From assembly GCA_009379955.1 (NCBI GenBank), contig WHST01000012.1, positions 1-64,000 of the forward strand: a DNA stretch of 64,000 nt. Direction: 5' to 3'. The notes beneath the pieces are model-generated. The model was not told where the DNA came from and ran no database searches. It saw nothing but the letters and a program-made list of their open reading frames with translations. Shown here in pieces: positions 27,533 through 43,155 of this stretch (positions are counted from its first letter, which is position 1; every line of letters starts with the position of its first letter). This DNA comes from Streptosporangiales bacterium. GTDB taxonomy: Bacteria; Actinomycetota; Actinomycetes; Streptosporangiales; WHST01. The position numbers and the translations under genes are program-made.

Positions 27533-28881
27533 GCAAGAGCCGCGTCGAACGAGCCAGGGACCCGGCGGAGGAGCCGGGCAACGGCCACCAGGAGCCACCC
27601 GAGCTCTCCGACATGGTCACCGGCCTGTCGCGCCAGAACACCGTCTACCGCCGCACCCTCGAGGTCTGCGACGAGCTCGCCGACGCCGTGCTCGACGGCG
27701 TCGACCCCGTCGAGCTGACCCGCGTCCTCGCCGACCTGGTGGACAAGCGGATCGTGTTGATGGATCCGGCGTTCGTTCCCCGCGCCGAGGCCGGGGCCGA
27801 CGACGACAGCGCCGCGCTGCGCTGGGACCGGTCGGACCCGAGCATCGACCGCCTGCTGCGGGCGCTCGTCGTGAAGCGCCGGCCGCTGCGGGTGCCGTCG
27901 GTGCCCGGTTCGCTGCTCGAGCAGGGTTGTCTGATCACGCCGATCGTCGTCGGTGACGAGCCGCTCGGCTACCTCCTCGTCCTCGACCGGGCCGGCGACT
28001 CCGAGCCCGACGACGTCGACCTGCTGACGGCCACGTACGCCGCCACCCTCTTCGCGCTGACGCTCGCCCACGAACGCACCAGCACCGAGCTCGGCCTCCG
28101 CTATCAGCGCGCGATCGTCGACGCCCTCACCTCGGGCCACTTCCTCGACGCCGACGACGCACGGCAGAAGGCCCGCGCGCTCGGCCTCGACGAGGCGGTC
28201 GGCTGCCGCATCGGCGTCGTCCACGTCGACCGGCCCGAGTCACCGCGTGACGTCGACGCGGTCGCTCGACGCCTGTCGGCGGCCCTGCCGCGAGCGGTCG
28301 TCACGACGCACGAGTCGCGCATCGTGCTGATCCTGCCCGACCAGGCTCCACGCATGGGCGAGGGCCCGTCGCCGACACCGACCGCGTCGCTGTCGCGACT
28401 GTGGGAGCGGCTCGCCAACGCGACGAACGCCACCGTGACCTGCGGCCTGAGCGAGCACCTGACACACCCGGAGCACGCCCCGCACGGTCTCCGCCAGGCC
28501 GAGCAGGCGGTCGACCTCGGCATGCGGCTCGGCCGGGTCGGCCAGCTCGTCCGCTACGACGACCTCGGCATCTACCGCCTGCTGCTGCGCATCGGCGACA
28601 TGAGTGAGCTCTGGCGGTTCGCCGACGACGTGCTCGGACCGGTCATCGAGTACGACACCACCCACAAGCTCGACCTCGTCAAGACGCTCTCGGAGTACCT
28701 GCGCCACCAGGGCAGCCTCAAGCAGGTCTCCCGCAGCCTGCACGTCCACCCGAACACGGTCGCGTACCGCGCCCAGCGCATCGAGAAGCTGACCGGCCTC
28801 GACCTCGCCGACCCCGACGACCGCCTGCTCGCGCACGCCGCGGTCAAGATCGTCGAGGCCCAGCGCGCCGTCGACACCTGA
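27529..28881 (+). CDS. PucR/CdaR-type helix-turn-helix regulator
   Basis: 450-residue cytoplasmic regulator. A GAF-like domain occupies roughly 60-190, a GGDEF-related region 215-340 and the C-terminal HTH_30 domain 385-440 (LSEYLRHQGSLKQVSRSLHV, HPNTVAYRAQRIEKLTGLDL). These proteins usually sense a metabolite and activate purine, proline or diacid genes. ATGA overlap with the methyltransferase/MTHFR gene places both on one transcript, so it may report on methionine or one-carbon status; the ligand is unknown. Confidence 0.88.
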   Translation: MSKSRVERARDPAEEPGNGHQEPPELSDMVTGLSRQNTVYRRTLEVCDELADAVLDGVDPVELTRVLADLVDKRIVLMDPAFVPRAEAGADDDSAALRWDRSDPSIDRLLRALVVKRRPLRVPSVPGSLLEQGCLITPIVVGDEPLGYLLVLDRAGDSEPDDVDLLTATYAATLFALTLAHERTSTELGLRYQRAIVDALTSGHFLDADDARQKARALGLDEAVGCRIGVVHVDRPESPRDVDAVARRLSAALPRAVVTTHESRIVLILPDQAPRMGEGPSPTPTASLSRLWERLANATNATVTCGLSEHLTHPEHAPHGLRQAEQAVDLGMRLGRVGQLVRYDDLGIYRLLLRIGDMSELWRFADDVLGPVIEYDTTHKLDLVKTLSEYLRHQGSLKQVSRSLHVHPNTVAYRAQRIEKLTGLDLADPDDRLLAHAAVKIVEAQRAVDT

Positions 28882-28933: not shown

Positions 28934-28969
28934 TCAGTCTTGACTGATTTGATTTCTGCGACTTACGGT
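28934..28969 (+). promoter_or_regulatory. tetR promoter with overlapping operator (leaderless)
   Basis: TCAGTC-TT-GACTGA (28934-28947) is a perfect 6-2-6 inverted repeat of TetR-operator size. It overlaps the -35 hexamer TTGACT (28940-28945). TACGGT (28964-28969) follows after 18 bases, and the ATG at 28976 begins 7 bases later, so the mRNA probably starts at the start codon without a leader. Binding at the repeat would block the polymerase, implying autorepression of the regulator and its downstream operon. Confidence 0.6.
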
Positions 28970-28975
28970 GCTGCC

Positions 28976-29671
28976 ATGGCCAGTGAGGAAGCGCGCCAGC
29001 CGAAGCAGGCTCGCAGCGTCGCCACCCGGGAGCGGTTGTTGGACGCCGCCGTGGAGTGCCTGATCGAGTACGGGTACGCCGGTACGTCCACACCGCTGGT
29101 CTGCAAGCGCGCCAACCTCTCCAGGGGTGCACAACTGCATCACTTCGCCACCAAGGACGAGCTGCTGCTCGCCGCGATGGAGCACCTGGCGAGGCGCCGC
29201 TTCCAGGAGCTCAGCACCCGGGCACGGAAGATCCGCAAGACGATGTCGGACGACCCGGCCACGCGGATGCGCACGGCGATCGACCTGCTCTGGACGACCT
29301 TCTCCGCGGACCTGTACTTCGGCGCTCTCGAGCTGTGGGTGGCCGCACGCACCAACCCGACGCTGCGCGCCGAGGTGCATCGGATCGAACGGCACCTGGG
29401 TAAGGAGGTCCAGGCGCTCTTCCACGACCTCTTCCCGAGTGAGATCACGGACTCGCGCGAGGGAACCGAGGCGCTCCGCGCACAGACGTACCTGCTCCGC
29501 GGCCTCGCGCTCACTCGCCTGCTCCGGGACGGGCCGGGCGACGAGGAGAAGATGCTCGACGTCGCGGCGAAGCTGCTGACAGATGTGGCCGCCCCGTCGG
29601 CCGCCACCACGACGCGAACCGGAAAGACCAAGCCGCCCAAGAAGACACAAGCCCGGACGGGCACGAGCTAA
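28976..29671 (+). CDS. TetR family regulator
   Basis: 231-residue repressor. The N-terminal helix-turn-helix (about 10-60; RERLLDAAVECLIEYGYAGT, LSRGAQLHHFATKDELLLAA) is canonical; the ligand domain (80-205) has the TetR_C arrangement, and the last 25 residues are lysine/threonine-rich. ATG 28976 is preferred over an upstream ATG at 28916, which would translate through the operator and promoter. It is followed 50 bases later by the importer lipoprotein gene in the same direction, with no terminator seen between them, so it heads the putative degradation operon. Confidence 0.9.
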   Translation: MASEEARQPKQARSVATRERLLDAAVECLIEYGYAGTSTPLVCKRANLSRGAQLHHFATKDELLLAAMEHLARRRFQELSTRARKIRKTMSDDPATRMRTAIDLLWTTFSADLYFGALELWVAARTNPTLRAEVHRIERHLGKEVQALFHDLFPSEITDSREGTEALRAQTYLLRGLALTRLLRDGPGDEEKMLDVAAKLLTDVAAPSAATTTRTGKTKPPKKTQARTGTS

Positions 29672-29721
29672 CAGCCGAGCCACACTGCTGCCCACCAGCG
29701 GAGTTCGAAGGAGAACCGACG

Positions 29722-30909
29722 ATGGTGTCTACCAACCATGCCTCCGACAGGTCAGAACGGGGAATCAGTAGGCGCAGTCTCTTCGGCGGCGCCGGAGCGC
29801 TCGCCCTGGGTGGGGTGGTCACCGCATGCGGCGGACCGGCAGCGCAGTCCACATCGAAGTCGAAGGTGACGAACTCTGACGGCAAGAAGCTGCGCCGCAT
29901 CACCTTGAGCTACGGGGTGCCGACCCTCGACACGACCACCGCGTGGTTCGGTGCGATCCCGCGCGCTCTCGGGTTCTACGAGCAACACGGGCTCAGCGTC
30001 GAGATCGAGGGCCTGCAAGGTGGCACGGCATCGGTCGCGGCGCTGACGACGAACCGTTCGCAGCTCGCGACGCAGAGCACGCAGGTCATCTTCACCTCGG
30101 TCGACCGCGGGGTGGAGCTCAAGGGCGTCATGTGCCAGATTCCCGGCGACTTCATCGGTATCGCCGTGAGCGACTCGAGCCCGATCACCGAGGAGTCACA
30201 GCTCGCCGACTACCTGCGCGGCAAGACGATAGGCACCAACGCGATCGGCGGCAGCCCGGACATCGAGGTCCGTGCGGTCGTCAAGCACATGGGTCTCGAA
30301 CCGGACAAGGACGTCAAGTTCCTCGCCGTCGGCACCGGAACCCCGGCCCTGCACGCGCTGCAGAAGGGGCGCGTCACCGCCCTCGGGCTGTGGGCGATGA
30401 TCTACGCGAACTTCGAAGCGCAGGGCACGAAGCTGCGGATCTTCCGCCCCGATCCGCTGTCCAAGCTGGGATTCCAGCACGCGACAGTAGCGACGCAGGC
30501 AATGGTGGACGACGACCCCGAGCTGGTCCTCTCGTACTGCAAGGCGGTCGCCAAGTCGCTGGCCTTCCTCAGCGCCGCGGATCCAACCGAGATCGTCAAG
30601 CTGCACTACCGCCTGTACCCGGCCGCGAAACCGCAGGGCATGTCGTCCGCACGTGCCGTGGAGATCGGGACCAAGGTGCTGAAGAGCGTCATGCCGTACC
30701 TCGAGCTCGACAAGCGGATGCAAGAGGGTCAGCTGCTCGGGGACATGGAGGACTCGAAGATCACGGCCGTCGGGGAACTGCTGCGCGGTGCCGACACGAT
30801 CAAGAAGGTCGAGACGCCGAGCGCCTACTTCACCCGCCAGTTCCTCGAGGAGGCCAACGACTTCGACCGCGACGCGATCGTCGCGCAGGCGAAGAAGTTC
30901 TCGGCGTGA
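29722..30909 (+). CDS. NMT1/SsuA-type ABC substrate-binding lipoprotein
   Basis: 395-residue binding protein. The N-terminus has a twin-arginine-like SRRSLFGGAG followed by lipobox VVTAC, so it is likely exported and anchored. The mature part is a periplasmic-binding type 2 fold related to NMT1/TauA/SsuA: FGAIPRALGFYEQHGLSVEI, then GGTASVAALTTNRSQLA. Relatives bind sulfonates, pyrimidine precursors, riboflavin or aromatic acids. Its ATPase and permease lie 5.7 kb downstream, at 35467-37126, with six metabolic genes in between. GGAGA precedes the ATG. It is the first structural gene of the operon. Confidence 0.88.
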   Translation: MVSTNHASDRSERGISRRSLFGGAGALALGGVVTACGGPAAQSTSKSKVTNSDGKKLRRITLSYGVPTLDTTTAWFGAIPRALGFYEQHGLSVEIEGLQGGTASVAALTTNRSQLATQSTQVIFTSVDRGVELKGVMCQIPGDFIGIAVSDSSPITEESQLADYLRGKTIGTNAIGGSPDIEVRAVVKHMGLEPDKDVKFLAVGTGTPALHALQKGRVTALGLWAMIYANFEAQGTKLRIFRPDPLSKLGFQHATVATQAMVDDDPELVLSYCKAVAKSLAFLSAADPTEIVKLHYRLYPAAKPQGMSSARAVEIGTKVLKSVMPYLELDKRMQEGQLLGDMEDSKITAVGELLRGADTIKKVETPSAYFTRQFLEEANDFDRDAIVAQAKKFSA

Positions 30910-30929
30910 GACGTGAGGGTGGAGGCGTG

Positions 30930-31430
30930 ATGCGACAGCGACACTTCGAGGACGTCGAGGTGGGCATGGAGCTGACCCCGGTGACCAAGGGCCCGATGAC
31001 CAGCATGCACCTCATGCGGTGGTCCTCGGCGATCGAGAACTGGCACCGCATCCACTACGACCGCCCGTTCGCCACCGACCACGACGGCCTGCCCGACGTG
31101 CTGGTCAACGGTTCGTGGAAACAGCACGTGCTGGCTCAGCTGATCAAGGACTTCGCAGGCCCGTCGGGCTGGCCGTTGAACATCTCGTTCAGCTACCGCG
31201 GCATGGACGTGCGCGGCGCGACCATCACCGCGTACGGAGAGGTCAGCGGGCGTCGCGAACTGGCCCGATGGGGGGTCGTGGAGTGCACCATCGGCATGCG
31301 CAACGAGAACGGTGATGTGACCACGACGGGAACGGCGCACGCGCTGCTGCCGCGCCGCGACGGTCCGCCGGTGCCGTATCCGCTGCCCCCGTCGCTGATC
31401 GAGCAGGCCACGGACGGTGCGGCAGCGTGA
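30930..31430 (+). CDS. MaoC/HTD2-like hot-dog hydratase subunit
   Basis: 166-residue single hot-dog domain. The active-site segment reads ENWHRIHYDRPFA, the HRIHYD type found in HTD2- and mesaconyl-CoA-hydratase-like proteins, followed by PDVLVNGSWKQ. The position of the usual catalytic Asp (five before the His) is Asn, so catalysis may rely on a partner. A second, N-terminal-type hot-dog protein is encoded at 32419; the two probably form one hydratase acting on an alpha,beta-unsaturated acyl-CoA. An upstream GTG one codon earlier is an alternative start. GGAGG is 3-8 bases before. Confidence 0.8.
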   Translation: MRQRHFEDVEVGMELTPVTKGPMTSMHLMRWSSAIENWHRIHYDRPFATDHDGLPDVLVNGSWKQHVLAQLIKDFAGPSGWPLNISFSYRGMDVRGATITAYGEVSGRRELARWGVVECTIGMRNENGDVTTTGTAHALLPRRDGPPVPYPLPPSLIEQATDGAAA

Positions 31431-32416
31431 GTCGAACGAACGACAACCGATCCGAGCCGGGAGCTGAGAGGTGGGCACAGATGAACGTGGACCGTGTCGA
31501 GCTGCATGAGGTCGGGCCGCGGGAAGGTTTCCAGTTCGAAGGGATCGGGCAGCCGGACAAGATCTCCACGGCGCAGAAGGTGGAGCTGGTGGAGGCGCTG
31601 GCGCAGACCGGGCTACGCAAGATCCAGGTGACCAGCTTCGTCAGTCCCAAGCACGTGCCGCAGATGGCCGACGCGGACGACGTGTCGACGCAGGTACGCA
31701 GCTTCCCCGGGGTCGCGTACGACGCCGTCTACCTGAACGACAAGGGCCTCGAACGTGCCATTGCTGCCGGCATCTACGAGATCGACGGGCACGTGAGCCT
31801 GACGGCGAGCGAGACGTTCTCCAAGCAGAACCAGCGGCGTGACATGGCCGCGGACATCGAGATGCAGCGCAAGCAGCTCACGCTCTACCGGGACCACGGC
31901 ATCCCGGTGCGGTCCGGCACCTTGATGGCGGCGTTCGGTTGCAACTACGAGGGCGACATCTCCGTCGAGCGGGTGCTGGAGTGCGTCGGGATCATGCACG
32001 ACCTGGCAGCTGAGTTCGACACCCAGATCGACGACGCGCTGCTCGCCGACACCATGGGCTGGGCCGACCCCGACCAGATCAAGCGGGTCATCGGCGCGGT
32101 ACGCGAACGCTGGCCGGCGATGTCGGTCTCCCTGCACCTGCACGACACCCGAGGCACAGGGATCGCCAACGTGTACGCGGCGCTCGAGACCGGTGTCACG
32201 GCGTTCGACTCGTCCGTCGGCGGCCTGGGCGGGTGCCCGTTCGCGAAGACGGTCGCCGGCAACGTCGCGACCGAGGACATCGTCTTCATGTGCGAGCGGA
32301 TGGGCATCGAGACCGGGGTCGACCTGGGCAGGCTCGTCGAGGTCGTCAAGCTTGCCGAGGAGATCGTGGGCCATCCGTTGCCCGGCAAGCTCGGCCACGT
32401 CTACGCGGCAGCGTGA
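31427..32416 (+). CDS. Hydroxymethylglutaryl-CoA lyase-like enzyme
   Basis: 329-residue HMGL-like TIM barrel. Metal and substrate motifs are present: VGPREGFQ near 30, KIQVTSFVSPKHVPQMADAD, LADTMGWADP near 205, HLHDTRGTGIANVYAA near 235 and the glycine-rich lid SSVGGLGGCPFA with its reactive cysteine near 268, then GNVATEDIVF. By family it retro-aldol-cleaves a 3-hydroxy(-3-methyl)acyl-CoA into acetyl-CoA and a keto product. GTG 31427 overlaps the previous stop by 4 bases; ATG at 31481 (MNVDRVELHEVGPREG) is an equally plausible start giving 311 residues. Confidence 0.88.
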   Translation: MSRTNDNRSEPGAERWAQMNVDRVELHEVGPREGFQFEGIGQPDKISTAQKVELVEALAQTGLRKIQVTSFVSPKHVPQMADADDVSTQVRSFPGVAYDAVYLNDKGLERAIAAGIYEIDGHVSLTASETFSKQNQRRDMAADIEMQRKQLTLYRDHGIPVRSGTLMAAFGCNYEGDISVERVLECVGIMHDLAAEFDTQIDDALLADTMGWADPDQIKRVIGAVRERWPAMSVSLHLHDTRGTGIANVYAALETGVTAFDSSVGGLGGCPFAKTVAGNVATEDIVFMCERMGIETGVDLGRLVEVVKLAEEIVGHPLPGKLGHVYAAA

Positions 32417-32418
32417 CC

Positions 32419-32973
32419 ATGGTCGCCGAACAGGTAGCCGTCACGGACTACATCACCGCCGAGGTGCGTTCGCTGATCGGGCGCAAGGGCGAGACGATGG
32501 TCGCGTCCGATCCCGTCGACCGCAGCTCCGTACGGCGGTTCGCGCAGGCGATCATGGACGACGACCCGCTCTACTGGGACGAGGACCATGCGGCGAAGTC
32601 GCAGTACGGCCGGATCATGGCGCCGCCGCTGTTCCCACTCCACGCCCTGCGCAGACCAGGCGGGACATCGGATCCGCTCGACCGGTCGTTCGAGGACTCC
32701 GACTACGACGGCGCCGGCGACGTGCTCGGCCGGATGGGTCTGCCTGACGTCCCCATCCCACAGCAGCGGTTGCTCAACGGCGGCAACGACGTCCGGATCC
32801 TCGGCCTCGCCGGAGTCGGCGATGTCATCGTCACGCAGAGCGCCTACGAGGACATCTACCAGAAGAACGGGCGCAGCGGCGCACTGATCTTCGTCGACAT
32901 CGTCACCGACTACTGGGTGCAGCAGGATGGCACCGCACTGCTGCGCAGCCGCCAGGTCTTCATCTGGCGGTAG
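32419..32973 (+). CDS. FAS1-like (MaoC N-terminal) dehydratase subunit
   Basis: 184-residue hot-dog protein with the FAS1_DH segment VRRFAQAIMDDDPLYWDED then YGRIMAPPLFPLHAL, typical of the non-catalytic or N-terminal half of two-part hydratases such as HadA or the steroid ChsH pair. Likely pairs with the HTD2-like protein at 30930. ATG 32419 sits 2 bases after the lyase stop; GTG 32413 in the same frame would overlap that stop and is possible. Confidence 0.78.
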   Translation: MVAEQVAVTDYITAEVRSLIGRKGETMVASDPVDRSSVRRFAQAIMDDDPLYWDEDHAAKSQYGRIMAPPLFPLHALRRPGGTSDPLDRSFEDSDYDGAGDVLGRMGLPDVPIPQQRLLNGGNDVRILGLAGVGDVIVTQSAYEDIYQKNGRSGALIFVDIVTDYWVQQDGTALLRSRQVFIWR

Positions 32974-32999
32974 ACCGACGGGCTCTGGCAGGTGAGAAG

Positions 33000-33824
33000 A
33001 TGCGATTCATCGCGTACTCGAACGCAGGCACGCCGACCATGGGCGTGGCGGTGGACGACCGGGTCGTACCCCTGTGTGAGGTCGCTGAGTTCTACGCCGA
33101 CCTGCCGAGCTACCGTGCGGCAGCCGCGACGAAGACCGCTGCCGCTGCCGACGGGCTGGCGCTCACGGACGTCGAGCCCGCGATACCCGTACCGGCGACG
33201 GCGCACGTGCTGTGCGCGGGCCTGAACTACCGCGACCATGCCGCCGAGGCAACCGCGGACCTGCCGACGGTGCCCGACGTGTTCGGCCGGTGGGCGTCGA
33301 CGCTCAACCGGGACGGCGGTGAGGTGCCCCTGCCACCGCGGGAGCACGGCCTGGACTGGGAAGGTGAGCTCGCCGCCGTCGTCGGCGCGCCCCTGCGAGA
33401 CGTGGACGAGGCGGAGGCGGAGGAGGCGATCCTCGGTTATGTGTGCTTCAACGACCTGAGCGCACGGGGGTTCCAGTTCGCCGGCAAGCAGGTGACCGTC
33501 GGGAAGAACGCCGACGGTTCGGCGCCGATCGGCGCGCAGATCGTCGAGCCCGACGACCTCGGGCGAGCACGCGACCTCCGTATCCGCACCACGGTCAACG
33601 GCCGGCCGAAGCAGGAAGGCTCCACGGCTCAGCTCGTCTTCACGGCCGCGCAGATCATCGCGTACGTGTCCGGCTGCATGTCGCTGCGGCCAGGGGACCT
33701 GGTAGCCACGGGCACGCCCGCCGGCGTCGGCTTCAGCCGTGCACCCGCCGAGCTGCTCGGCAGCGGGGATGTGGTGACCGTGTCGATCGAGGGGATCGGC
33801 GAACTGACCAACACGATCGCGTGA
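33000..33824 (+). CDS. Fumarylacetoacetate hydrolase family protein
   Basis: 274-residue FAH-family enzyme. The N-terminal cap (1-65) is followed by the FAH core, with LCAGLNYRDHAAEA near 72, metal ligands in DWEGELAAVVG (Glu-x-Glu) near 120, the KQVTVGKNADG region and GDLVATGTPAGVG near 240. Members hydrolyse C-C bonds of acylpyruvates or decarboxylate/tautomerise oxaloacetate-like acids. In this operon it would process a dioxo intermediate or the product of the lyase. It begins 26 bases after the preceding stop with GGTGAG ahead of its ATG. Confidence 0.9.
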   Translation: MRFIAYSNAGTPTMGVAVDDRVVPLCEVAEFYADLPSYRAAAATKTAAAADGLALTDVEPAIPVPATAHVLCAGLNYRDHAAEATADLPTVPDVFGRWASTLNRDGGEVPLPPREHGLDWEGELAAVVGAPLRDVDEAEAEEAILGYVCFNDLSARGFQFAGKQVTVGKNADGSAPIGAQIVEPDDLGRARDLRIRTTVNGRPKQEGSTAQLVFTAAQIIAYVSGCMSLRPGDLVATGTPAGVGFSRAPAELLGSGDVVTVSIEGIGELTNTIA

Positions 33825-33869
33825 CCGGACACGAGCTGCCGCGCTGTGCAGGCATGGGAGGGCAACGCC

Positions 33870-35477
33870 ATGGCCATAGACGTCGAGTCCCTCGCACTCG
33901 ATCAACCAGCGGAGCTCCCCGGTGACGCGTTCCAGGCATTACGCCGTGCTGCGGACCTCTGGGGCGCTCGCGACTTCATCGTCGTCGACCACCGGGCACA
34001 GGTGGTGTCGTTCGCGGAGCTCCTCGAGCATGCGACCACCTTCGGCGAGCTGCTCCGCCACCGTGGGGTCAAGCCCGGTGATCGGGTCGGCCTGGCGCTC
34101 GCCAACTCGGTGGAGTGGGCCGCCGCGGCGTTCGCCGTCTTCGCCGTAGGTGGCGTCGTCGTACCGTTGAGCACCAGGCTGGTCGACCGGGAGGTACGGC
34201 ACTGTCTCGAGGTGACCCGCCCGGCCGCGGTGGTGCTGCACCAGTCCGTCCGCACGCGCGACCTGCTGAGCGAGTGGCCGAGCCTGCGCGAGGTGGAGCG
34301 AGATGACGGTGCACCGATCGACGTGTGGGTGCACCGGACGTCCGGGCAGCAGTGGACTGCGCCGGAACCACAAGGGGAGGCGGTCGGGTCGCCGACAACC
34401 ACCGCGCTCGACGACCTCGACGGGGCTGCGGTGATCCTGTTCACCTCAGGCACGACATCGGCACCCAAGGGCGTTGTCCTGACGCATCACGGCCTGCTGA
34501 GGCTCGCGTACGAGGTCGGTCGCCGTCAGGGACTCGGCCCGGACGACAGGTTCTTCTCGATCGCACCGTTCTTCCACTGCAGCGGACTCATGCATGCGAT
34601 GCTGACGACGCTACTGACCGGCGCGACGCTGTTCACGGCGACGAGGTACCGGGCGCAGGACGTTCTGGGCGTGCTGCGCGACGAGTCGATCACCGTCTCG
34701 CACGGCCCGCTGCCGGCCGCCGACGACGTGCGTGCACACCCGGATCCGCGCGGCTTCCCGCAGTTCACGCGCGGGTGGGCCGGTGGCACCAGCGACGACC
34801 TCGCCGACCTGGAGAGCGCGATGGGCACCCGGCTGTGCTCGCTGTGGGGCATGACCGAGACCGGCGGCTGCTTCGCACTCACCACCGCGGACGACCCGCG
34901 CGACGTCCGGCACGGCACCGCCGGATTTCCACTGCCTGGCCTGGAGTTCCGCATCGCCGGTGCCGACGGGTCGCCCGTCGACGGCGCGGAGCCCGGCGAG
35001 CTGTGTGTGCGCGGCTGGAACGTGACACCCGGGTACTTCCGTGACCCGGCCGCCTCCGCGTCCGCCATCCGGGACGGCTGGCTGCACACGGGTGACCGCG
35101 CCGCACGACTGCCGGACGGTCGGTTGCGGTTCCTGGGTCGACAGAAGGACATCATCCGGGTCGGTGGCGAGAACGTCGCGCCGACGGAGATCGAGTCGGT
35201 GCTCACCGAGCTCGACGCGGTCACCGACGCTGCGGTGATCGCCGCGCCGGACGCACGCCTCGGTGAGGTGCCGGTCGGCATCGTCGTGCTCACGCCGGGA
35301 GGTCAGGTGACGGCGAGCGGACTCACCGAGCACTGCCGCACGCGACTGGCGAGCTTCAAGGTGCCGCGCGACTTCTTCCTGGTCGACGGCATTCCGCGAA
35401 CACACGCCACGAACAGGATCCAGCGCACCAAGCTGCACGCCGATGTGCGGGATGGGAAGGCCACACATGTCAGGTGA
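33870..35477 (+). CDS. AMP-forming acyl-CoA ligase
   Basis: 535-residue ANL-superfamily ligase. Core motifs: A3 LFTSGTTSAPKG near 195, A5 GMTETGG near 330, A7 DGWLHTGDRAARL near 405, A8 RKDIIRVGGENV-like near 425. The C-terminal A10 motif reads IPRTHATNRIQRTKL, with Asn-Arg where most ligases have Gly-Lys; the last lysine may substitute. It would activate the imported carboxylic acid to its CoA thioester with ATP. The start at 33870 has GGGAGGG upstream. Its end overlaps the ATPase gene by 11 bases. Confidence 0.88.
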   Translation: MAIDVESLALDQPAELPGDAFQALRRAADLWGARDFIVVDHRAQVVSFAELLEHATTFGELLRHRGVKPGDRVGLALANSVEWAAAAFAVFAVGGVVVPLSTRLVDREVRHCLEVTRPAAVVLHQSVRTRDLLSEWPSLREVERDDGAPIDVWVHRTSGQQWTAPEPQGEAVGSPTTTALDDLDGAAVILFTSGTTSAPKGVVLTHHGLLRLAYEVGRRQGLGPDDRFFSIAPFFHCSGLMHAMLTTLLTGATLFTATRYRAQDVLGVLRDESITVSHGPLPAADDVRAHPDPRGFPQFTRGWAGGTSDDLADLESAMGTRLCSLWGMTETGGCFALTTADDPRDVRHGTAGFPLPGLEFRIAGADGSPVDGAEPGELCVRGWNVTPGYFRDPAASASAIRDGWLHTGDRAARLPDGRLRFLGRQKDIIRVGGENVAPTEIESVLTELDAVTDAAVIAAPDARLGEVPVGIVVLTPGGQVTASGLTEHCRTRLASFKVPRDFFLVDGIPRTHATNRIQRTKLHADVRDGKATHVR

Positions 35478-36282
35478 CCTGATTGACGTCACGTCCGTCA
35501 GCAAGACGTATGAGACGGCCAAGGGCGGACTGGTCCACGCACTGCAGGATGTCTCCCTCACCATCGGGCGTGGCGAGTTCGTCAGCATCGTCGGGCCGAG
35601 CGGATGCGGGAAGTCCACCCTGCTCAGCATCATCGCGGGCCTGGACGAAGCCAGCCACGGCGCGGTCGGAGTCGCGGGCGTGCACGTGCGCAGGCCCAGC
35701 AGAGACGTCAGCATCGTGTTCCAGAACCCGGTGCTCCTGCCATGGCGCAAGGTCGTGGACAACGTCCTGCTGCCGATCGAGCTCAGCTCGAGACGCATCT
35801 CGCAACAGCATCGGAGCAAGGCTGGCCAGGTGATCGAGATGGTCGGTCTCACCGGATTCGAGAACTCTTACCCGCGAGAGCTGTCCGGTGGCATGCAGCA
35901 GCGTTGCGCGATAGCGCGGGCCCTCATGCTCGACGCTCCCGTGCTGCTGATGGACGAGCCATTCGGCTCGCTCGACGCGCTGACCCGCGAACAGCTCAAC
36001 CTCGAGATCCAGGACATCTGGATGCAGACCGGCACCACCGTCATGCTCATCACGCACGACATCGACGAGGCTGTGCTGCTCAGCGACCGCGTCATCGTCA
36101 TGTCGAGGAGACCGGGATCGATCGTGCGCGTGTTCGACATCGACGCGCCACGGCCGCGTGGGCACGGTGTCGGCGACGAGCTCGAGACGGCTCGCGTCCG
36201 CGCCGCCATCCGCGAGGAGCTGGGTGTGGCGGGGCCCGTGCGGTCCCAACAAGACGTCAAGGAGCCGACCGATGTCCACTAG
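35467..36282 (+). CDS. SsuB/TauB-type ABC transporter ATP-binding protein
   Basis: 271-residue ATPase. Walker A GPSGCGKST near 42, the Q-loop FQNPVLLPWRKVVDNV characteristic of nitrate/sulfonate/taurine importers, LSGGMQQRCAIARAL signature near 142 and Walker B VLLMDEPFGSLDALTRE. It energises the importer whose binding protein is at 29722. It overlaps the ligase gene by 11 bases and the permease gene by 11. Confidence 0.92.
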   Translation: MSGDLIDVTSVSKTYETAKGGLVHALQDVSLTIGRGEFVSIVGPSGCGKSTLLSIIAGLDEASHGAVGVAGVHVRRPSRDVSIVFQNPVLLPWRKVVDNVLLPIELSSRRISQQHRSKAGQVIEMVGLTGFENSYPRELSGGMQQRCAIARALMLDAPVLLMDEPFGSLDALTREQLNLEIQDIWMQTGTTVMLITHDIDEAVLLSDRVIVMSRRPGSIVRVFDIDAPRPRGHGVGDELETARVRAAIREELGVAGPVRSQQDVKEPTDVH

Positions 36283-37126
36283 CCAGGGAGTGCCGACCCA
36301 CTCCGACGTGGAGAGCTCAGCCGGCGGGCTACCGACCGCGGCAGCCGGCCGTCGAGGGCTTCGCCGGTGGAGGGCGGTGTCCGGCCAGATCAGCAAGGTG
36401 CTCTACGTCGTGGCCACGTTCATCCTCGTCACCGTGGTCTGGCAAGCGGTAGTCACCCTGTTCCACGTGCCGTCGGTGATCCTGCCGGGGCCGATCGAGA
36501 TAGCGGGCGCGCTCTCCACGGCGAAGACGATCATCCCGGTGCAGCTCGGCTGGACGATGTACTCCGCGATCATCGGATTCGGGATCGCGGTCGTGAGCGG
36601 AGTGGTCTGCGCGCTCCTGGTAACCGAGATCTCGTTGCTCCGTAAGACGTTCTACCCGCTCATCATCAGCTTCCAGTCGATGCCACACATCGGCATCGCG
36701 CCACTGATGGTCGTCTGGTTCGGGTTCGGCACCACGTCGCACGCGGCGATGTCGGCGGTGGTCGCGTTCTTCCCGATCTTCACGAACATGGCGCACGGCC
36801 TCGACACCGTGCGCGGAGAGCGCCTGCGGCTGTTCCGCTCGTACGGTGCGTCAAGCCTCCAGACGATGCGGAAGCTCAAGCTGCCGATGTCGCTGCCGTT
36901 CCTGTTCGCGGGCGCCAACGTCGGCATCATCTTGTCGATGCTCGCCACCATCGTGTCGGAGTTCCTCGGCTCGAACCAGGGGATGGGCTTCATGCTCGTG
37001 CAGCAGAGCAACAACCTGAACACCCCCGGTGTGTTCGCGGTGCTCATCGTGCTCGCGGTCGTCGGCCTGCTCCTGCACGCGATCGTCACCGGCCTGCGCC
37101 GGATCGCCTTGCGCTGGAGCCTGTGA
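36272..37126 (+). CDS. SsuC/TauC-type ABC transporter permease
   Basis: 284-residue membrane permease. A hydrophilic N-terminal extension of about 40 residues precedes six helices. The BPD loop region is ERLRLFRSYGASSLQTMRKLKLPMSLPFLFAGANVG, the EAA motif type of the sulfonate/NMT1 group (residues about 185-220). It forms the pore with the preceding ATPase. ATG 36272 overlaps the ATPase stop. Confidence 0.92.
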   Translation: MSTSQGVPTHSDVESSAGGLPTAAAGRRGLRRWRAVSGQISKVLYVVATFILVTVVWQAVVTLFHVPSVILPGPIEIAGALSTAKTIIPVQLGWTMYSAIIGFGIAVVSGVVCALLVTEISLLRKTFYPLIISFQSMPHIGIAPLMVVWFGFGTTSHAAMSAVVAFFPIFTNMAHGLDTVRGERLRLFRSYGASSLQTMRKLKLPMSLPFLFAGANVGIILSMLATIVSEFLGSNQGMGFMLVQQSNNLNTPGVFAVLIVLAVVGLLLHAIVTGLRRIALRWSL

Positions 37127-37138
37127 ACAAGGAGAGCG

Positions 37139-37954
37139 ATGACCGACCTGCGACTGTGGCATCAGAGCCTCACCGACCTCGGCCTGCTGGACGCCTACCA
37201 GCGAGGTCTCACCGAACACCTGACGGACGTCGTGACGGACGACGTCGTGGTCGACGTGCACGGGATGAGCTCCGGGACCTACACCACCCCGTACCCGGGT
37301 AGCCGGATCCACCAGGTGTACCTGCAGAGCCTGCACAAGGAGCAGTTCGTCTCCGCCGCGCTGACCGCGGAGTCCGCCGGCTACGACGGGATGATCATCG
37401 CGACCATCCCCGACCTGGCGCTGGAGGAGTGCCGGTCGTTGGTCGACATCCCGGTCGTGGGGTTCGGTGAGGCGAGCTTCAAGGTGGCGTCGATGCTCGG
37501 CGGCGTCATCGGTGTGGTCTCGTTCGACATCGAGCCCCTGGAGCCGCAGCTGCGCCGCAATGCCGAGCGCTACGGGGTCGGCTCCCTGCTCGGGCCGATG
37601 ACCGACGCGAAGGCGTCCTTCGACGACGTCGTGGACGGACTCGCCGGCGGCGATGCCGGCAAGGTGGTCCGGGCCGTCACCGAGGCAGGACGGGAGCTGA
37701 TCGCCCGGGGGGCACAGGTGATCGTCCCCGGGCCTGGACCGATGAACCTGTTGGTGGCCAGGCAGCGACTCACCCGCATCGACGACGTTCCGGTGATCGA
37801 CTCGCTGCGGGCGAGTGCCGAGATGTGCGCCATGCTCGCCAGGATGCGACGTGCCGGCGTCTACCCGAGCCGCCGCGGCTTCTACTGGGCCAAGCCCGAG
37901 CGGGCACAGGTCGCCGCGGCGCGTGAGGTCTACGGCCTGGCCACGCCTCGCTGA
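37139..37954 (+). CDS. Asp/Glu/hydantoin racemase-fold protein lacking the catalytic cysteines
   Basis: 271-residue protein of the aspartate/glutamate/hydantoin racemase superfamily by pattern: GYDGMIIATIPDLALEECRS then VDIPVVGFGEASFKVASMLG, and GRELIARGAQVIVPGPGPMN. The first catalytic cysteine position is Thr89 and the second region is PGPGP (197-201); both active-site cysteines are absent. So it is unlikely to be a two-base racemase. It may be an isomerase or decarboxylase variant of the fold, or a binding protein. GGAGAG precedes the ATG 12 bases after the permease. Confidence 0.75.
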   Translation: MTDLRLWHQSLTDLGLLDAYQRGLTEHLTDVVTDDVVVDVHGMSSGTYTTPYPGSRIHQVYLQSLHKEQFVSAALTAESAGYDGMIIATIPDLALEECRSLVDIPVVGFGEASFKVASMLGGVIGVVSFDIEPLEPQLRRNAERYGVGSLLGPMTDAKASFDDVVDGLAGGDAGKVVRAVTEAGRELIARGAQVIVPGPGPMNLLVARQRLTRIDDVPVIDSLRASAEMCAMLARMRRAGVYPSRRGFYWAKPERAQVAAAREVYGLATPR

Positions 37955-37971
37955 CCGGGAAGCGATTCAGC

Positions 37972-40299
37972 ATGACGAGCACGATGGATGCGACCTCGCC
38001 CGACCGCGACGTCCCGCCGGCGGTCTTGCGTGAGATCGAGCGACGGGTGCTGTGGCTGTCGACGGCGATGGTCCACCACGCCAACAGCGTGCGCCCGAAG
38101 ACCGCAGGCCCGAAGGTCGGCGGCCACCAGGCGTCGTCGGCGTCGATGGTGTCGCTGATGACGTCGCTGTGGTTCCGGCACCTCCGACCGGACGACCGAG
38201 TGTCGGTCAAACCGCATGCCTCGCCGGTCCTGCATGCGATCAACTACCTGCTGGGTAGGCTGGAAGAGCAGTACCTGACGACGCTGCGTTCGATCGGCGG
38301 TCTGCAGAGCTACCCGAGTCGCGCGAAGGATCCCGACCCCGTCGACTACTCGACCGGGTCCGTCGGCATCGGGGCGACGGCCACCATCTGGGGCGCGGTC
38401 GCGCGGCGTTACCTGCAGAGCAGGGCGGAAGAGTCGACACACGGCCGGCAGTACGCGCTCGTCGGTGACGCGGAGCTGGACGAGGGCGCCGTGTGGGAGG
38501 CCGTGCTCGATCCGGGTGTGGTCGAGCTGGGCGAGCTGGTGTGGATCGTCGACCTCAACCGGCAGTCGCTCGACCGGGTGGTGCCGAACATCGCGGTCGA
38601 TCGGTTGCACGGGATGTTCGCCGCCGCCGGGTGGCAGGTGCTCACCGTGAAGTACGGCGGGCTGCTCGAGGACCTGTTCACCCGCCCCGGCGGTGACGCG
38701 TTGCGCACCCGTATCGACGAGATGAGCAACCCCGAGTACCAGCGGCTGCTGCGTTGTCCGCCCGCCGAGATGCGGCGTCGACTGCCGGGCAGCGGCCATG
38801 GAGCCGCAGCACTCGAGCAGCTGGTCGCCGACCTGGACGACGCGACCCTCACGGCGGCGATGGGCAACCTCGGCGGACACGACCTGGGCTCGCTCGACCG
38901 TGCGTTCCAGGCCATCGACGACACCCGCCCCACCGTGATGATCGCCTACACCGTCAAGGGATACTGCCTGCCGATCCAGGGGCACCCGCAGAACCACTCC
39001 GCGTTGCTCACCGACGAGCAGATGGAACGGCTCGCCGCCGACCTCGGCGCCGATCACGCCGACCCGTGGGCGCGGTTCCGCGATGGCAGCCGGCCCGCGC
39101 TGCTGTGCGCCGAGACCGCGCGTCGGCTACGGCGCGACGACACGGCTGTGGGCGGACCACCGGAGGTGCCGGTCGACTTCGGGCGTACGCCGACGAACAC
39201 GGGCACCACCCAGGAGGCGCTCGGCCGGGCGCTGCTCGACCTGACTCGGCAGGCGCCACACGCGGCGGGCCGGGTCGTCACGGTGAGCCCCGACGTCAGC
39301 TCGTCGACCAACCTCGGCGGTTGGGTGAACAAGGTCGGTGTGTGGTCGGTACGTGAACGCGTCGACTGGTTCGCCGACGATCCCGACACGATCCTGCACT
39401 GGCAGGAGCAGCCGACGGGGCAGCACATCGAGCTCGGCATCGCGGAGACGAACCTGGTGGGGTTGCTCGGTGAGCTCGGCGCGACCTGGAGCCGGTGGGG
39501 GCAACCGCTGCTGCCGATCGGCGTGCTGTACGACCCGTTCGTGACACGTGCGCTGGAGCCGTGGACGTTCGGCATCTACGCCGGTGGCCAGTCGATCCTG
39601 GTCGGCACGCCGTCCGGGGTCAGCCTCGCCCCGGAAGGTGGTGCGCACCAGTCGATCATCACGCCGTCGATCGGGCTGGAACAGCCGGACTGCCTCGCGT
39701 ACGAGCCGGCGTTCGCGATCGACGTCGAGTGGACGCTCCTTGCCAGCCTGGCACGACTCGGGCGCCAGGACGGCACGTCGACGTATCTCCGGTTGTCGAC
39801 CCGACCGGTGGACCAGCGGCTCGCGCGCGTGCCGACGGATCCGACGGCACGCGCCCGCCGGCGGCGGCTCGTCGTCGCCGGCGCCTACCCACTGCGCCGC
39901 GCCGACAGGCCACGTGTCACGGTCGCGGCGCTGGGCGCGGTCGTCACCGAGGCGCTGGCCGCCGCGGACCGGCTCGACGCGATCGGCGTCGGCACGGACG
40001 TCGTCTGTGTCACCAGCCCGGGACTCCTCTTCGACGCGTTACGTGGACGGCAAGGTCGCGGAGCCGGCCAGGACTGGATACTGGAGCAGGCGTTCCCGAG
40101 CAACCGGGCTGTGCCACTGGTCACCGTGCTCGACGGTCACCCGCACACCTTGGCATTCCTCGCCGGTATCAACAATGTCGCGAACATGACGCTCGGCGTC
40201 ACGTCGTTCGGCCAGTCCGGCGCGCTGCAGGACGTCTACCGCTACCACGGCATCGACACCGACGCGATCGTGGCCGCGGCGCTCGATCTCACCGACTGA
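37972..40299 (+). CDS. Pyruvate dehydrogenase E1-like / transketolase-like TPP enzyme
   Basis: 775-residue homodimeric-E1-type enzyme. The TPP pyrophosphate motif GDAELDEGAVWEA lies near 165 with LVWIVDLNRQSLD as the NN-equivalent; the Pyr domain begins near 400 (FGRTPTNTGTTQEALG) with the Glu of GIAETNLVG near 490; the transketolase C-terminal domain is 640-775. It should decarboxylate a 2-oxo acid. AceE proteins are about 890 residues and have an E2-binding N-terminus, which is shorter here. No E2 or E3 gene is near, so it may act on a different 2-oxo acid made by this operon, or work with the cell's general E2. Last gene of the operon, 18 bases after the racemase-fold gene. Confidence 0.82.
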   Translation: MTSTMDATSPDRDVPPAVLREIERRVLWLSTAMVHHANSVRPKTAGPKVGGHQASSASMVSLMTSLWFRHLRPDDRVSVKPHASPVLHAINYLLGRLEEQYLTTLRSIGGLQSYPSRAKDPDPVDYSTGSVGIGATATIWGAVARRYLQSRAEESTHGRQYALVGDAELDEGAVWEAVLDPGVVELGELVWIVDLNRQSLDRVVPNIAVDRLHGMFAAAGWQVLTVKYGGLLEDLFTRPGGDALRTRIDEMSNPEYQRLLRCPPAEMRRRLPGSGHGAAALEQLVADLDDATLTAAMGNLGGHDLGSLDRAFQAIDDTRPTVMIAYTVKGYCLPIQGHPQNHSALLTDEQMERLAADLGADHADPWARFRDGSRPALLCAETARRLRRDDTAVGGPPEVPVDFGRTPTNTGTTQEALGRALLDLTRQAPHAAGRVVTVSPDVSSSTNLGGWVNKVGVWSVRERVDWFADDPDTILHWQEQPTGQHIELGIAETNLVGLLGELGATWSRWGQPLLPIGVLYDPFVTRALEPWTFGIYAGGQSILVGTPSGVSLAPEGGAHQSIITPSIGLEQPDCLAYEPAFAIDVEWTLLASLARLGRQDGTSTYLRLSTRPVDQRLARVPTDPTARARRRRLVVAGAYPLRRADRPRVTVAALGAVVTEALAAADRLDAIGVGTDVVCVTSPGLLFDALRGRQGRGAGQDWILEQAFPSNRAVPLVTVLDGHPHTLAFLAGINNVANMTLGVTSFGQSGALQDVYRYHGIDTDAIVAAALDLTD

Positions 40300-40326: not shown

Positions 40327-41529
40327 ATGGAAGCGCCGGACGCCGGGCAGCAGTCGCGAGTGCGCTCGCGTCAACAGCCGCGGCTCCTCGCATCGTTACG
40401 CGACGAGGGCCCGATGTCGCGCGTGGCGCTCGGGGAGCGGCTGGAGCTGCCACGCGCGAAGCTCAGCGGTGCGCTGACCCGGCTGGTCGACGCGGGGCTC
40501 GTGCAGATCGGTGGTCCGGCGGCCAGCCGGGGTGGTCGGCGCTCGATGCTCGTGCACCTGGCGGACGACCTCCGCTTCCTTGCCGCGGACGTCGGTGCGA
40601 CATCGGTCAACGTCGCGGTCACCGACGGCAGGTGCGAGGTGCTCGCGAGCCAGAGCGAGGACTGTGACGTGCGGCAAGGGCCCGCGCGGGTGCTCCAGCG
40701 TGTGGTCGACCTGGCGAACCTGGTGCTGGCGAAGACTCCCGGCCGGCTGATGGGCGCCGGCATCGGCCTGCCGGGTCCGGTCAGCTTCCGAGACGGCATG
40801 CCGGTCGCGCCACCGATCATGCCCGGCTGGGACCGCTACCCGGTGCGCGAGGAGCTGGCCGGACGGTGGGGCTGCCCCGTCACGGTGGACAACGACGTGA
40901 ACGTGATGGCGCTCGGCGAACGCCACGCCGGTGTGGCCCGGTCGTTGGACGACCTGATCTTCGTCAAGGTCGGCACCGGCATCGGCTGCGGCATCGTGCT
41001 CGGCGGCGTCGTGTACCGGGGCGTGGCGGGCAGCGCGGGCGACATCGGGCACATCCGGCTGGACGACGACGGACCGGTGTGCGCATGCGGCGAGGCCGGC
41101 TGCCTCGAGGCGTACTTCGGCGGCGCCGCCCTGGCACGAGACGGCCTGACACTCGCGCGCAGCGGCCGGTCACCGATGCTCGCCGAGACGTTGACCGAGC
41201 GCAGCACGCTGACCGCCGAGGACGTCGGTGCCGCCGCCGCGGCCGGCGACTTCGGGGCGACGAACCTCCTGCGGGAGGGCGGCCGACGCCTCGGCCACGT
41301 GATCGCGTCACTGGTCAGCTTCCTGAACCCGGGCATGGTCGTGATCGGAGGCGGCGTGTCGCGCGTCGGCCATCCGCTGCTCGCCGAGGTGCGCGGCTCG
41401 GTCTACCGCCGCTCCCTCCCGCTCGCCACGAGCAACCTGCCCATCGTGCTCTCCGAGCTGGGCGACCTGGCGGGGGTCACCGGCGCCGCCTGGTCCGCCA
41501 CCGAGCACGCCTTCATCCTCGTCGACTGA
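40327..41529 (+). CDS. ROK family transcriptional regulator
   Basis: 400-residue NagC/XylR-type protein. A helix-turn-helix lies at about 15-65 (MSRVALGERLELPRAKLSGA), with a sugar-kinase-like ROK domain from 80 onward. The zinc motif CACGEAGCLEAYFG at about 254-267 is intact, as is GDIGHIRL at about 238. It likely represses the following sugar importer operon until a sugar binds. ATG 40327 has no Shine-Dalgarno; TACATT at 40315-40320 would suit a leaderless transcript, although co-transcription with the E1-like gene 27 bases upstream is also possible. Confidence 0.9.
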   Translation: MEAPDAGQQSRVRSRQQPRLLASLRDEGPMSRVALGERLELPRAKLSGALTRLVDAGLVQIGGPAASRGGRRSMLVHLADDLRFLAADVGATSVNVAVTDGRCEVLASQSEDCDVRQGPARVLQRVVDLANLVLAKTPGRLMGAGIGLPGPVSFRDGMPVAPPIMPGWDRYPVREELAGRWGCPVTVDNDVNVMALGERHAGVARSLDDLIFVKVGTGIGCGIVLGGVVYRGVAGSAGDIGHIRLDDDGPVCACGEAGCLEAYFGGAALARDGLTLARSGRSPMLAETLTERSTLTAEDVGAAAAAGDFGATNLLREGGRRLGHVIASLVSFLNPGMVVIGGGVSRVGHPLLAEVRGSVYRRSLPLATSNLPIVLSELGDLAGVTGAAWSATEHAFILVD

Positions 41530-41542
41530 ACCGCGCTCCGGA

Positions 41543-41565
41543 CTTTCGTCCTGAGTCGTCGAAAG
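41543..41565. promoter_or_regulatory. Inverted repeat, candidate ROK operator
   Basis: CTTTCG (41543-41548) and CGAAAG (41560-41565) form perfect arms 11 bases apart, between the ROK gene and the sugar importer. The size suits a dimer operator. TACGTT at 41592-41597 is a candidate -10 for the importer transcript. A terminator role is unlikely because no T-run follows. Confidence 0.4.
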
Positions 41566-41637
41566 ATCGCACGTCCAGATCTAAAGTGCGCTACGTTGTG
41601 ACCTCGCGCACACCATGCCCCCTCGGGAGACCGGCCC

Positions 41638-43155
41638 ATGACCGATGACGCGCTCCTGACGATGGCCGGCATCGTCAAGACCTTCCCCGGAGTGCGCGCG
41701 CTCGACGGGGTCGACCTGGAGGTCCGCGCCGGCGAGGTGCACTGCCTGCTCGGCCAGAACGGCGCCGGAAAGTCCACACTGATCAAGGTGCTGTCGGGCG
41801 CGCATCAGCCGGACCAGGGCGTGATCAGCTGGCACGGTCGACCCATCACGCTCGGCTCGCCGGTCGACGCACTGCGCCTCGGCATCGCCACCATGTACCA
41901 GGAGCTCGACCTGGTCGACGGGCTGTCGGTGGCGGAGAACGTCTTCCTCGGTCACGAGCCGGCCACGTTCGGCTTCACGCGCTACCGGCACGCCCGGGCC
42001 AGCGCCAGTCGACTGCTGCACCGGCTGGGCCATCCGGAGATCCCGCCGGGCCGAGAGGTCGAGCTGCTGTCGGCCGCCGGCAAGCAGCTGGTGTCGATGG
42101 CACGAGCACTCGCGCACGACGCGCAGCTGATCGTGATGGACGAGCCGACCGCGGCGCTGGCCAACGACGAGGTCGACAACCTGTTCCGCATCGTCGGGGA
42201 GCTGACCGCGGCCGGCGTCGCCGTCGTCTACATCTCCCACCGGCTCGACGAGATCCGCCGCATCGGGCATCGAGTGACCGTGCTCAAGGACGGGCGCACC
42301 GTCGCATCCGGACTCGACGCGGCGAGCACACCGACCGCACAGCTGGTCAACCTGATGTCCGGCCGCACGATGCAAGCCGTCGCGCCGCGCCGCCAGGAGT
42401 CCACGATGGACGAACGGCGCGAGGTGCTGAGGGTCGAAGGGTTGACCAGGGTCGGCGAGTTCGCCGACGTGAGCTTCACCGTGCACGCCGGCGAGATCGT
42501 CGGCCTCGCCGGACTGGTCGGCGCCGGTCGCAGCGAGGTGCTCGAGACCGTGTTCGGCGCGAGGAAGCCGGACGCCGGCACGGTCGCCGTGGGCGGCAGG
42601 CGGCTGCGACCTGGCAGCGTGACCTCCGCGGTGGCCGCCGGCGTGGGGCTCGCTCCGGAGGAGCGCAAGAGCCAGGGCCTGCTGCTGGACCAGTCCGTGG
42701 CCGACAACGTCATGCTGGCCAGCCTGCCTGAGTACAGCCGTGCCGGGTTCCCCGATCGGGCCCGAGAGCTGCGCGACTCCCGCGCCACGCTGGAACGGCT
42801 GGACCTGCGCCCGGCCGACCCGCGCCGGGTGATGCGTACGCTCTCCGGCGGCAACCAGCAGAAGGCGGTCGTGGCGCGCTGGCTGGTGCGCGACTGCAAG
42901 GTACTGCTCCTGGACGAGCCGACCCGCGGGGTGGACATCGGCGCGCGGGTCGAGCTGTACCGGCTGATCCACGAGCTGGCGGCGTCCGGCGTGGCGGTGG
43001 TGCTGGTCTCCAGCGAGGTTCCCGAGGTACTCGGGCTCTCTGACCAGGTACTGGTGATGCGCGAGGGTCGCCTGCTCGCCACGCGGCCTGCGCGGGACCT
43101 CACCGAGGCCGCGGTGCTCGACATGGTGATGACAGGCAGCGAGGTCATGACGTGA
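41638..43155 (+). CDS. Ribose-type sugar ABC transporter ATP-binding protein (RbsA/MglA-like)
   Basis: 505-residue protein with two fused nucleotide-binding domains. The first has Walker A GQNGAGKST near 39 and Walker B LIVMDEPTAAL near 165; the second has the usual degenerate P-loop GLVGAGRSE near 300, then LSGGNQQKAVVARWL and LLLDEPTRGVDIG. It energises import of a sugar or polyol through the permease encoded next, which it overlaps by 4 bases. Confidence 0.93.
   Translation: MTDDALLTMAGIVKTFPGVRALDGVDLEVRAGEVHCLLGQNGAGKSTLIKVLSGAHQPDQGVISWHGRPITLGSPVDALRLGIATMYQELDLVDGLSVAENVFLGHEPATFGFTRYRHARASASRLLHRLGHPEIPPGREVELLSAAGKQLVSMARALAHDAQLIVMDEPTAALANDEVDNLFRIVGELTAAGVAVVYISHRLDEIRRIGHRVTVLKDGRTVASGLDAASTPTAQLVNLMSGRTMQAVAPRRQESTMDERREVLRVEGLTRVGEFADVSFTVHAGEIVGLAGLVGAGRSEVLETVFGARKPDAGTVAVGGRRLRPGSVTSAVAAGVGLAPEERKSQGLLLDQSVADNVMLASLPEYSRAGFPDRARELRDSRATLERLDLRPADPRRVMRTLSGGNQQKAVVARWLVRDCKVLLLDEPTRGVDIGARVELYRLIHELAASGVAVVLVSSEVPEVLGLSDQVLVMREGRLLATRPARDLTEAAVLDMVMTGSEVMT

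Follow-up and report, generated by a model that had tools for sequence, protein, structure and literature searches.

The lyase of itaconate degradation is of the CitE type, and a textbook (R)-hydratase carries a D-x4-H dyad. In the itaconate route, a branched dicarboxylate is activated with coenzyme A (CoA), hydrated and cleaved by a retro-aldol reaction to acetyl-CoA and a 2-oxo acid, pyruvate (PMC12290011, PMC12599236), and the haloarchaeal mesaconyl-CoA hydratase is a MaoC-family enzyme (PMC5592240). Here, we describe an operon that resembles pathways of this kind, found in the first 64,000 nucleotides of contig WHST01000012.1 of a Streptosporangiales bacterium (assembly GCA_009379955.1; this whole stretch is the window). 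Between 28976 and 40299 on the plus strand, a TetR gene is followed by ten co-directional genes, with all reading frames open and a coding-type composition. They encode a substrate-binding protein (sbp), a divergent MaoC-type hot-dog subunit (maoC1), a hydroxymethylglutaryl-CoA (HMG-CoA) lyase-like enzyme (hmgl), a FAS1_DH-type hot-dog subunit (fasdh), a FAH-family protein (fah), an acyl-CoA ligase (acs), the ATPase (atp) and permease (perm) of an ATP-binding cassette (ABC) importer, a racemase-fold protein and a thiamine pyrophosphate (TPP) enzyme similar to the E1 component of pyruvate dehydrogenase (PDH). It is likely that the system imports, activates, hydrates and cleaves an organic acid. 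Our fuller reading, a branched-dicarboxylate catabolic operon whose 2-oxo acid product, formed along with acetyl-CoA, would feed the TPP enzyme, is tentative. Literature searches among open-licence papers agree with an earlier note on this DNA that no described pathway has this gene set, and searches on tricarballylate-linked lyases and on the isonicotinate/citrazinate route likewise yielded nothing relevant.

The recurrence of a core gene set supports the general import-to-cleavage reading. A maoC1 scan of ~85,000 species genomes found 139 relatives; the best 80, together with four plasmid loci, make up the 84 maoC1 loci compared here. The 37 control loci were picked for E1 or racemase genes and are non-random, and the loci lack phylogenetic independence. 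Neighbours of maoC1 include fasdh in 80 loci, CaiB in 55, hmgl in 54, acyl-CoA dehydrogenase in 29, PrpD in 23 and the ligase in 18, versus no fasdh, CaiB or hmgl and one case each of acyl-CoA dehydrogenase, PrpD and ligase among the controls. One class of clusters has a CaiB-type CoA transferase, frequently accompanied by acyl-CoA dehydrogenase and PrpD; the other has an AMP-forming ligase, often with a racemase-fold protein. From these counts, the CoA transferase and the ligase look like alternative activators. Closest in content is an alphaproteobacterial metagenome-assembled genome (MAG; locus L147), with eight of the ten families on one strand in ~9 kb (hmgl-ATPase-permease-binding protein-fasdh-maoC1-ligase-racemase-binding protein). 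A proteobacterial MAG (L124) holds seven of ten (maoC1-hmgl-ligase-ATPase-permease-binding protein-fasdh), and an Acetobacteraceae MAG (L142) reads racemase-hmgl-(other importer)-SDR-E1-fasdh-maoC1-ligase. Since the core recurs across phyla, its clustering exceeds chance: in other genomes, too, the importer, the ligase, the hot-dog pair and the lyase occur together. Comparative genomics therefore backs the core of its route of uptake, activation, hydration and retro-aldol cleavage, but the FAH step lies outside that core.

MaoC1 matched none of the Pfam or NCBIfam models; its AlphaFold2 model (mean pLDDT 85.5, pTM 0.82, alignment of 42 homologs) is closest in the PDB, by Foldseek, to the (R)-hydratase 1iq6 (E=6.7e-7, TMt 0.84), with further matches to the ChsH1-ChsH2 complex, HadAB and the mesaconyl-CoA hydratase MeaC. 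The fold of MaoC-type (R)-enoyl-CoA hydratases is thus seen in maoC1 by its model and in fasdh by its Pfam FAS1_DH domain. In the maoC1 motif, E-N-W-H-R-I-H-Y-D, the catalytic His position is invariant across the 84 loci, and the Asp position is Asn in all 84, preceded by an invariant Glu; this segment (residues 32-41) is predicted at low confidence (pLDDT below 50). Fasdh keeps the Asp in 74 of 80 sequences, but its His position is mostly taken by Tyr or Phe. The two proteins are probably subunits of one enzyme, in which the altered dyad could mean a site built from both subunits or a different chemistry. A two-part hot-dog hydratase, as first suggested, is thus retained as far as its two subunits go, but maoC1 is recognised through AlphaFold2 and Foldseek only, the lyase gene splits the pair and the textbook dyad is absent.

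The lyase deviates as well. It scores 282.4 bits against the NCBIfam HMG-CoA lyase subfamily model PRK05692.1 (cut-off 246). Aligned to the Bacillus subtilis and human HMG-CoA lyases, it keeps HxHD and GGCP but reads REG for RDG (Asp42 is Glu), as do most lyases adjoining maoC1. On a maximum-likelihood tree of 56 sequences, it groups with lyases of the L124 MAG and of Falsiroseomonas stagni (L144) with support 100/98, and the REG/RDG character needs at most four changes versus a shuffled mean of 15.5; two sequences incomplete at the motif (L122, L156) were scored RDG and are actually REG, so the true number is lower. The lyase and hydratase reactions had been named from families that hold, with the altered catalytic residues of both overlooked; since those residues differ, it is the fold, and not a complete textbook active site, that points to either reaction.

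A score above the HMG-CoA lyase cut-off, together with the retained HxH, Cys-loop and Arg, would also suit a true HMG-CoA lyase acting on a 3-substituted glutaconate- or glutarate-type substrate and releasing acetyl-CoA and a 3-oxo acid (acetoacetate-like), and relatives of the other cluster class carry acyl-CoA dehydrogenase and CaiB, as in branched-acid routes. However, the lyase has Glu in place of Asp42, relatives have a different loop after GGCP (GGCPFAGHKGAA), the operon has no thiolase or 3-oxo acid CoA transferase, and an E1-type TPP enzyme, of a family that uses 2-oxo acids, stands both here and in L142. We regard this alternative as unlikely.

Neighbouring genes offer hints about the substrate. 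Substituted malates, citrates and succinates are the substrates of the LeuCD, PrpD, PrpB and TcuA families, and PrpD is the sole substrate-hint neighbour that is significantly frequent around maoC1 (p about 7e-4 versus the control set). LeuC, LeuD, a MatC/CitMHS dicarboxylate carrier and 2-oxo acid dehydrogenase genes lie near the locus of Rhodococcus USK10 (L171), and LeuC, a PrpB-like lyase and a TcuA-like flavoprotein near L131. In Diaphorobacter HDW4B (L172), the run comprises PrpD, a TPP enzyme, hmgl, acyl-CoA dehydrogenase, fasdh, maoC1, a CoA transferase, isochorismatase and TetR; Variovorax SRS16 (L174) has TPP enzymes and PrpD. We therefore lean, with reserve, towards a 2-substituted (branched) dicarboxylate-type acid as the substrate class. 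For the cleavage product, a 2-oxo or dioxo acid had been suggested: the 2-oxo acid is better supported, by E1 within L142 and beside L101 and by 2-oxo acid dehydrogenase or TPP enzyme genes beside L171, L172 and L174, and the dioxo acid less so, with FAH in two of 84 loci.

Luciferase-like flavin mononucleotide (FMN) monooxygenase genes flank two ligase-type clusters (L142 12074-13489, NtaA/DmoA family; L147 3797-5194), where they may supply an upstream oxidative step in those organisms. These genes, the aromatic-degradation genes of L172 and L174, and isochorismatase-type hydrolases near L136 and L172 would fit an operon that completes the breakdown of a ring-derived acid (N-heterocyclic, imide or aromatic), with the racemase-fold and FAH proteins processing the opened acid and the CoA steps finishing it; FAH proteins often act after ring cleavage. 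The window operon, though, has no oxygenase, amidase or ring hydrolase, and isochorismatase neighbours are not enriched over controls, which makes such a role improbable.

Returning to the branched-dicarboxylate reading, we infer its reactions, regulation and step order as follows. The operon would be induced by its substrate, with TetR keeping it repressed in the absence of the acid or the corresponding CoA ester as bound ligand. The NMT1-type ABC importer would take up a small organic acid, most likely a 2-substituted dicarboxylate of the mesaconate, itaconate or alkylmaleate type, and the ligase would convert it to its CoA thioester. The two-subunit hot-dog enzyme would add water to the alpha,beta-unsaturated thioester, turning a 2-substituted maleyl- or fumaryl-CoA into a 2-substituted malyl-CoA, and the HMG-CoA-lyase-like enzyme would cleave this hydroxyacyl-CoA to acetyl-CoA and a keto acid, here a 2-oxo acid R-CO-COOH, which the AceE-like TPP enzyme would decarboxylate. 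The racemase-fold protein may isomerise or otherwise condition the free acid, and FAH may serve an accessory step specific to this version of the operon.

The racemase-fold protein has the expected fold (PF01177; AlphaFold2 pLDDT 89.8; best Foldseek match an allantoin racemase, E=4.9e-13). Compared with the allantoin/hydantoin racemases 3qvk and 2eq5, its catalytic Cys positions hold Thr89 (ATIPD) and Pro199 (PGPGPM); the 3qvk chain carries Ser at both positions and 2eq5 shows Cys. It is not cysteine-less, as had been stated, since Cys98 and Cys230 are present and only the catalytic pair is gone. Close relatives also have neither Cys (ATLPN or CTLPN, and PGEMPLN), and a distant subgroup retains the first (second copies in L131 and L145, L090, L010). 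Judged from these residues, classical two-base racemisation is unlikely. No relative was found in viral contigs, and the fungal epimerase OpaE was dropped as a lead because its chemistry is unrelated. As an order-wide tracer, the protein was likewise set aside: its paralogs (46-50%) in this genome and six others belong to another cluster, with TcuA-like flavoproteins. In this genome, that cluster lies on contig C77 (L009 15432-19068; L010), where a 49% paralog stands between two flavoproteins, one at 367 bits against the cut-off of 369 for tricarballylate dehydrogenase TcuA, with an aldehyde dehydrogenase-like gene. The six other genomes of the order with a similar flavoprotein-racemase cluster all belong to one other family, some with an isochorismatase-type gene.

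The FAH protein has a clear FAA_hydrolase domain (PF01557 E=7.4e-64) and passes no cut-off among the specific NCBIfam FAH models that it matched. The E1-like protein reaches 207 bits against TIGR00759 (aceE; cut-off 860) and aligns to E. coli PDH E1 residues 94-852, its residue 40 matching residue 94. Its N-terminal segment, the counterpart of the E2-binding segment of AceE, is thus ~55 residues shorter. This genome has no second E1-like copy besides a 29%-identical AceE-type gene. Since its relatives are stand-alone, the E1 gene was dropped as an operon tracer, and its membership of the pathway rests on its position here and on the E1-like genes within the L142 cluster and beside L101. Enzymes of this kind, AceE-like and without the AceE N-terminus (L048-L067, L178-L186), form a widespread stand-alone gene of Actinomycetota and Proteobacteria, sometimes adjoining an Lrp/AsnC-type regulator, as read from sequence.

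These last observations bear on the idea that the pathway comprises the importer, ligase, hot-dog pair and lyase only, with FAH, the racemase-fold protein and E1 as unrelated passengers. Most E1-like genes of relatives stand alone and FAH is scarce, as this idea would have it; set against that, racemase-fold relatives occur in 10 of 84 loci, mostly ligase-bearing ones, and E1 recurs in L142 and beside L101. We think the idea quite improbable, slightly more so than the ring-derived acid.

Several points count against the branched-dicarboxylate reading. LeuCD, PrpB/phosphoenolpyruvate mutase, isochorismatase and TPP enzymes seldom occur as neighbours and show no enrichment relative to the controls. 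The active-site set of HMG-CoA lyase is incomplete, with Arg, HLH and GGCP kept and Asp replaced by Glu. No D-x4-H dyad lies within one subunit, maoC1 having N-x4-H and fasdh mostly an Asp without the His. The FAH gene recurs in L173 and L152 alone, and the E1-like gene, whose relatives of up to 70-75% identity are stand-alone in Actinomycetota, may be a chance neighbour here. A bolder version is doubtful, if somewhat less so than the HMG-type alternative: a new catabolic pathway of altered chemistry, with a Glu-for-Asp lyase and an N-x4-H heterodimeric hot-dog enzyme acting on a branched dicarboxylyl-CoA, a racemase-fold enzyme without its site cysteines upstream, and a module exchanged between Proteobacteria and Actinomycetota, in which the importer and the CoA-activating enzyme can be swapped for others.

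All three importer components match NMT1/SsuA-type families (PF09084, PF00005, PF00528). The binding protein has a Tat-type signal (SRRSLF) and a lipobox-like VTAC, and the nearest NCBIfam models of the ATPase are SaoA, NtrCD and TauB. Homologs of the binding protein at 36-40% identity lie within the L124 and L147 clusters; a search of 289 genomes from the same class as L124 recovered the L124 genome alone, and none was found in 396 other Actinomycetota genomes, of which four hold maoC1 relatives at 1e-15. As a tracer in plasmids, the binding protein gave only 28-29% matches with unrelated neighbours and was not used. Because it was not found in those Actinomycetota and the lyase groups with proteobacterial ones, the operon was likely acquired laterally, probably from proteobacteria. 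The G+C content at third codon positions of the operon genes is ordinary for the window; therefore, the acquisition was not recent, or the genes have been ameliorated.

Gene families were assigned by Pfam, NCBIfam and structure searches, which bore out the inventory of the earlier note (Table 1), and the ten tightly packed genes after TetR are all present and open. With preferred starts, stop-to-start gaps reach at most 50 bp and several neighbours overlap: tetR-sbp 50 bp, sbp-maoC1 20, maoC1-hmgl 50, hmgl-fasdh 2, fasdh-fah 26, fah-acs 21, acs-atp an overlap of 35, atp-perm an overlap of 11, perm-racemase 12 and racemase-E1 17. If hmgl starts at GTG 31427, the gap before it becomes a 4-bp overlap. 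The binding protein does come first in the importer, but the ATPase follows six genes after it, not seven, and the unit had probably been started too early, at 28934, the TetR start being more likely 28976.

Table 1. Features of the operon in the window
Feature	Position	Strand	Basis or remark
Perfect inverted repeat TCAGTC-TT-GACTGA, candidate TetR operator	28934..28947		sole match in window
TetR-family repressor gene	28976..29671	+	PF00440 E=1.2e-13; open reading frame from 28916
sbp, substrate-binding lipoprotein, NMT1/SsuA-like	29722..30909	+	PF09084 E=1.1e-18
maoC1, divergent MaoC-type hot-dog subunit, motif ENWHRIHYD	30930..31430	+	AlphaFold2 and Foldseek, best 1iq6
hmgl, HMG-CoA-lyase-like TIM-barrel lyase, motif VGPREGFQFE	31481..32416	+	PF00682 E=6e-38; PRK05692.1
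fasdh, FAS1_DH-type hot-dog subunit, probable maoC1 partner, motif DDDPLYW	32419..32973	+	PF13452 E=1.6e-19
fah, FAH-family hydrolase/isomerase	33000..33824	+	PF01557 E=7.4e-64
acs, acyl-CoA ligase, GTG start (ATG 33870 possible)	33846..35477	+	PF00501, PF13193
atp, ABC importer ATPase (ATG 35467 possible)	35443..36282	+	PF00005
perm, ABC importer permease	36272..37126	+	PF00528 E=2.6e-25
Asp/Glu/hydantoin-racemase-fold protein without both catalytic Cys	37139..37954	+	PF01177 E=3e-22
AceE-like (homodimeric PDH E1 type) TPP enzyme without AceE N-terminal region	37972..40299	+	TIGR00759

The inverted repeat lies shortly before the preferred TetR start. A repeat of this kind (6-bp arms, spacer 0-5) turns up in 10% of shuffles of the leader, so the native one is only a weak operator candidate. 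A scan for sigma-70-type promoters and terminators gave no signal above chance, and a ROK gene starts 27 bp 3′ of the E1 gene, so the transcript may extend beyond E1. That gene opens what looks like a separate sugar operon (40327-47517), with the ROK regulator, a sugar-type ABC importer and oxidoreductase-like and sugar isomerase-like genes. On the other side (25628-28881), also on the plus strand, a homocysteine methyltransferase/methylenetetrahydrofolate reductase-like fusion is followed by a PucR-like regulator that immediately precedes the TetR gene. A thiamine diphosphate enzyme of the acetolactate synthase/oxo acid decarboxylase type (by Pfam) lies on the minus strand at 23064-24758, near the operon and outside it.

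The annotations "hydroxymethylglutaryl-CoA lyase", "acyl dehydratase" and "MaoC family dehydratase N-terminal domain protein" co-occur, with no substrate assigned, in many Proteobacteria and in some Actinomycetota, Chloroflexota and others. Knowing the substrate of the module would correct many of these annotations and assign a function to a racemase-fold family that lost its catalytic cysteines; it could also bring to light an HMGL-type equivalent of citramalyl-CoA lyase.

Compared with known systems, the importer shares its binding-protein, ATPase and permease families with NMT1/SsuA/TauA-type ABC importers; unlike those of assigned substrate, its proteins fall below every specific NCBIfam cut-off matched (sulfonate, taurine, nitrate and others). 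The E1-like enzyme is homologous to the homodimeric PDH E1 (AceE) over the aligned region, but it is N-terminally shorter, scores far below the cut-off and has no E2 or E3 gene beside it in the operon. FAS1_DH/MaoC heterodimers (HadAB, HadBD, ChsH1-ChsH2) also combine two different hot-dog subunits: fasdh matches Rv0504c (8pwz) of HadBD, and the modelled maoC1 resembles ChsH1-ChsH2 and HadAB in predicted fold. In contrast to them, the operon has the Asn in maoC1 and an Asp without His in fasdh, and its subunits, whose pairing is a probable one, are encoded on either side of the lyase gene. With the HMG-CoA lyase of leucine breakdown (HMGCL/LiuE), the lyase shares the fold and most catalytic residues, whereas it has Glu for the Asp of RDG and a different loop after GGCP, and the operon has no thiolase or CoA transferase and a hydratase of another family. 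Itaconate degradation is alike in its order of CoA activation, hydration and retro-aldol cleavage. It differs in that the operon uses an AMP-forming CoA ligase in place of a CoA transferase and a two-subunit FAS1_DH/MaoC pair with an HMG-CoA-lyase-type lyase, so that the CoA transferase and CitE-type citramalyl-CoA lyase of that pathway are not found, and in that it adds the ABC importer, the racemase-fold protein and E1. The operon is thus real, its core is conserved and several of its catalytic motifs deviate together within a known kind of pathway.

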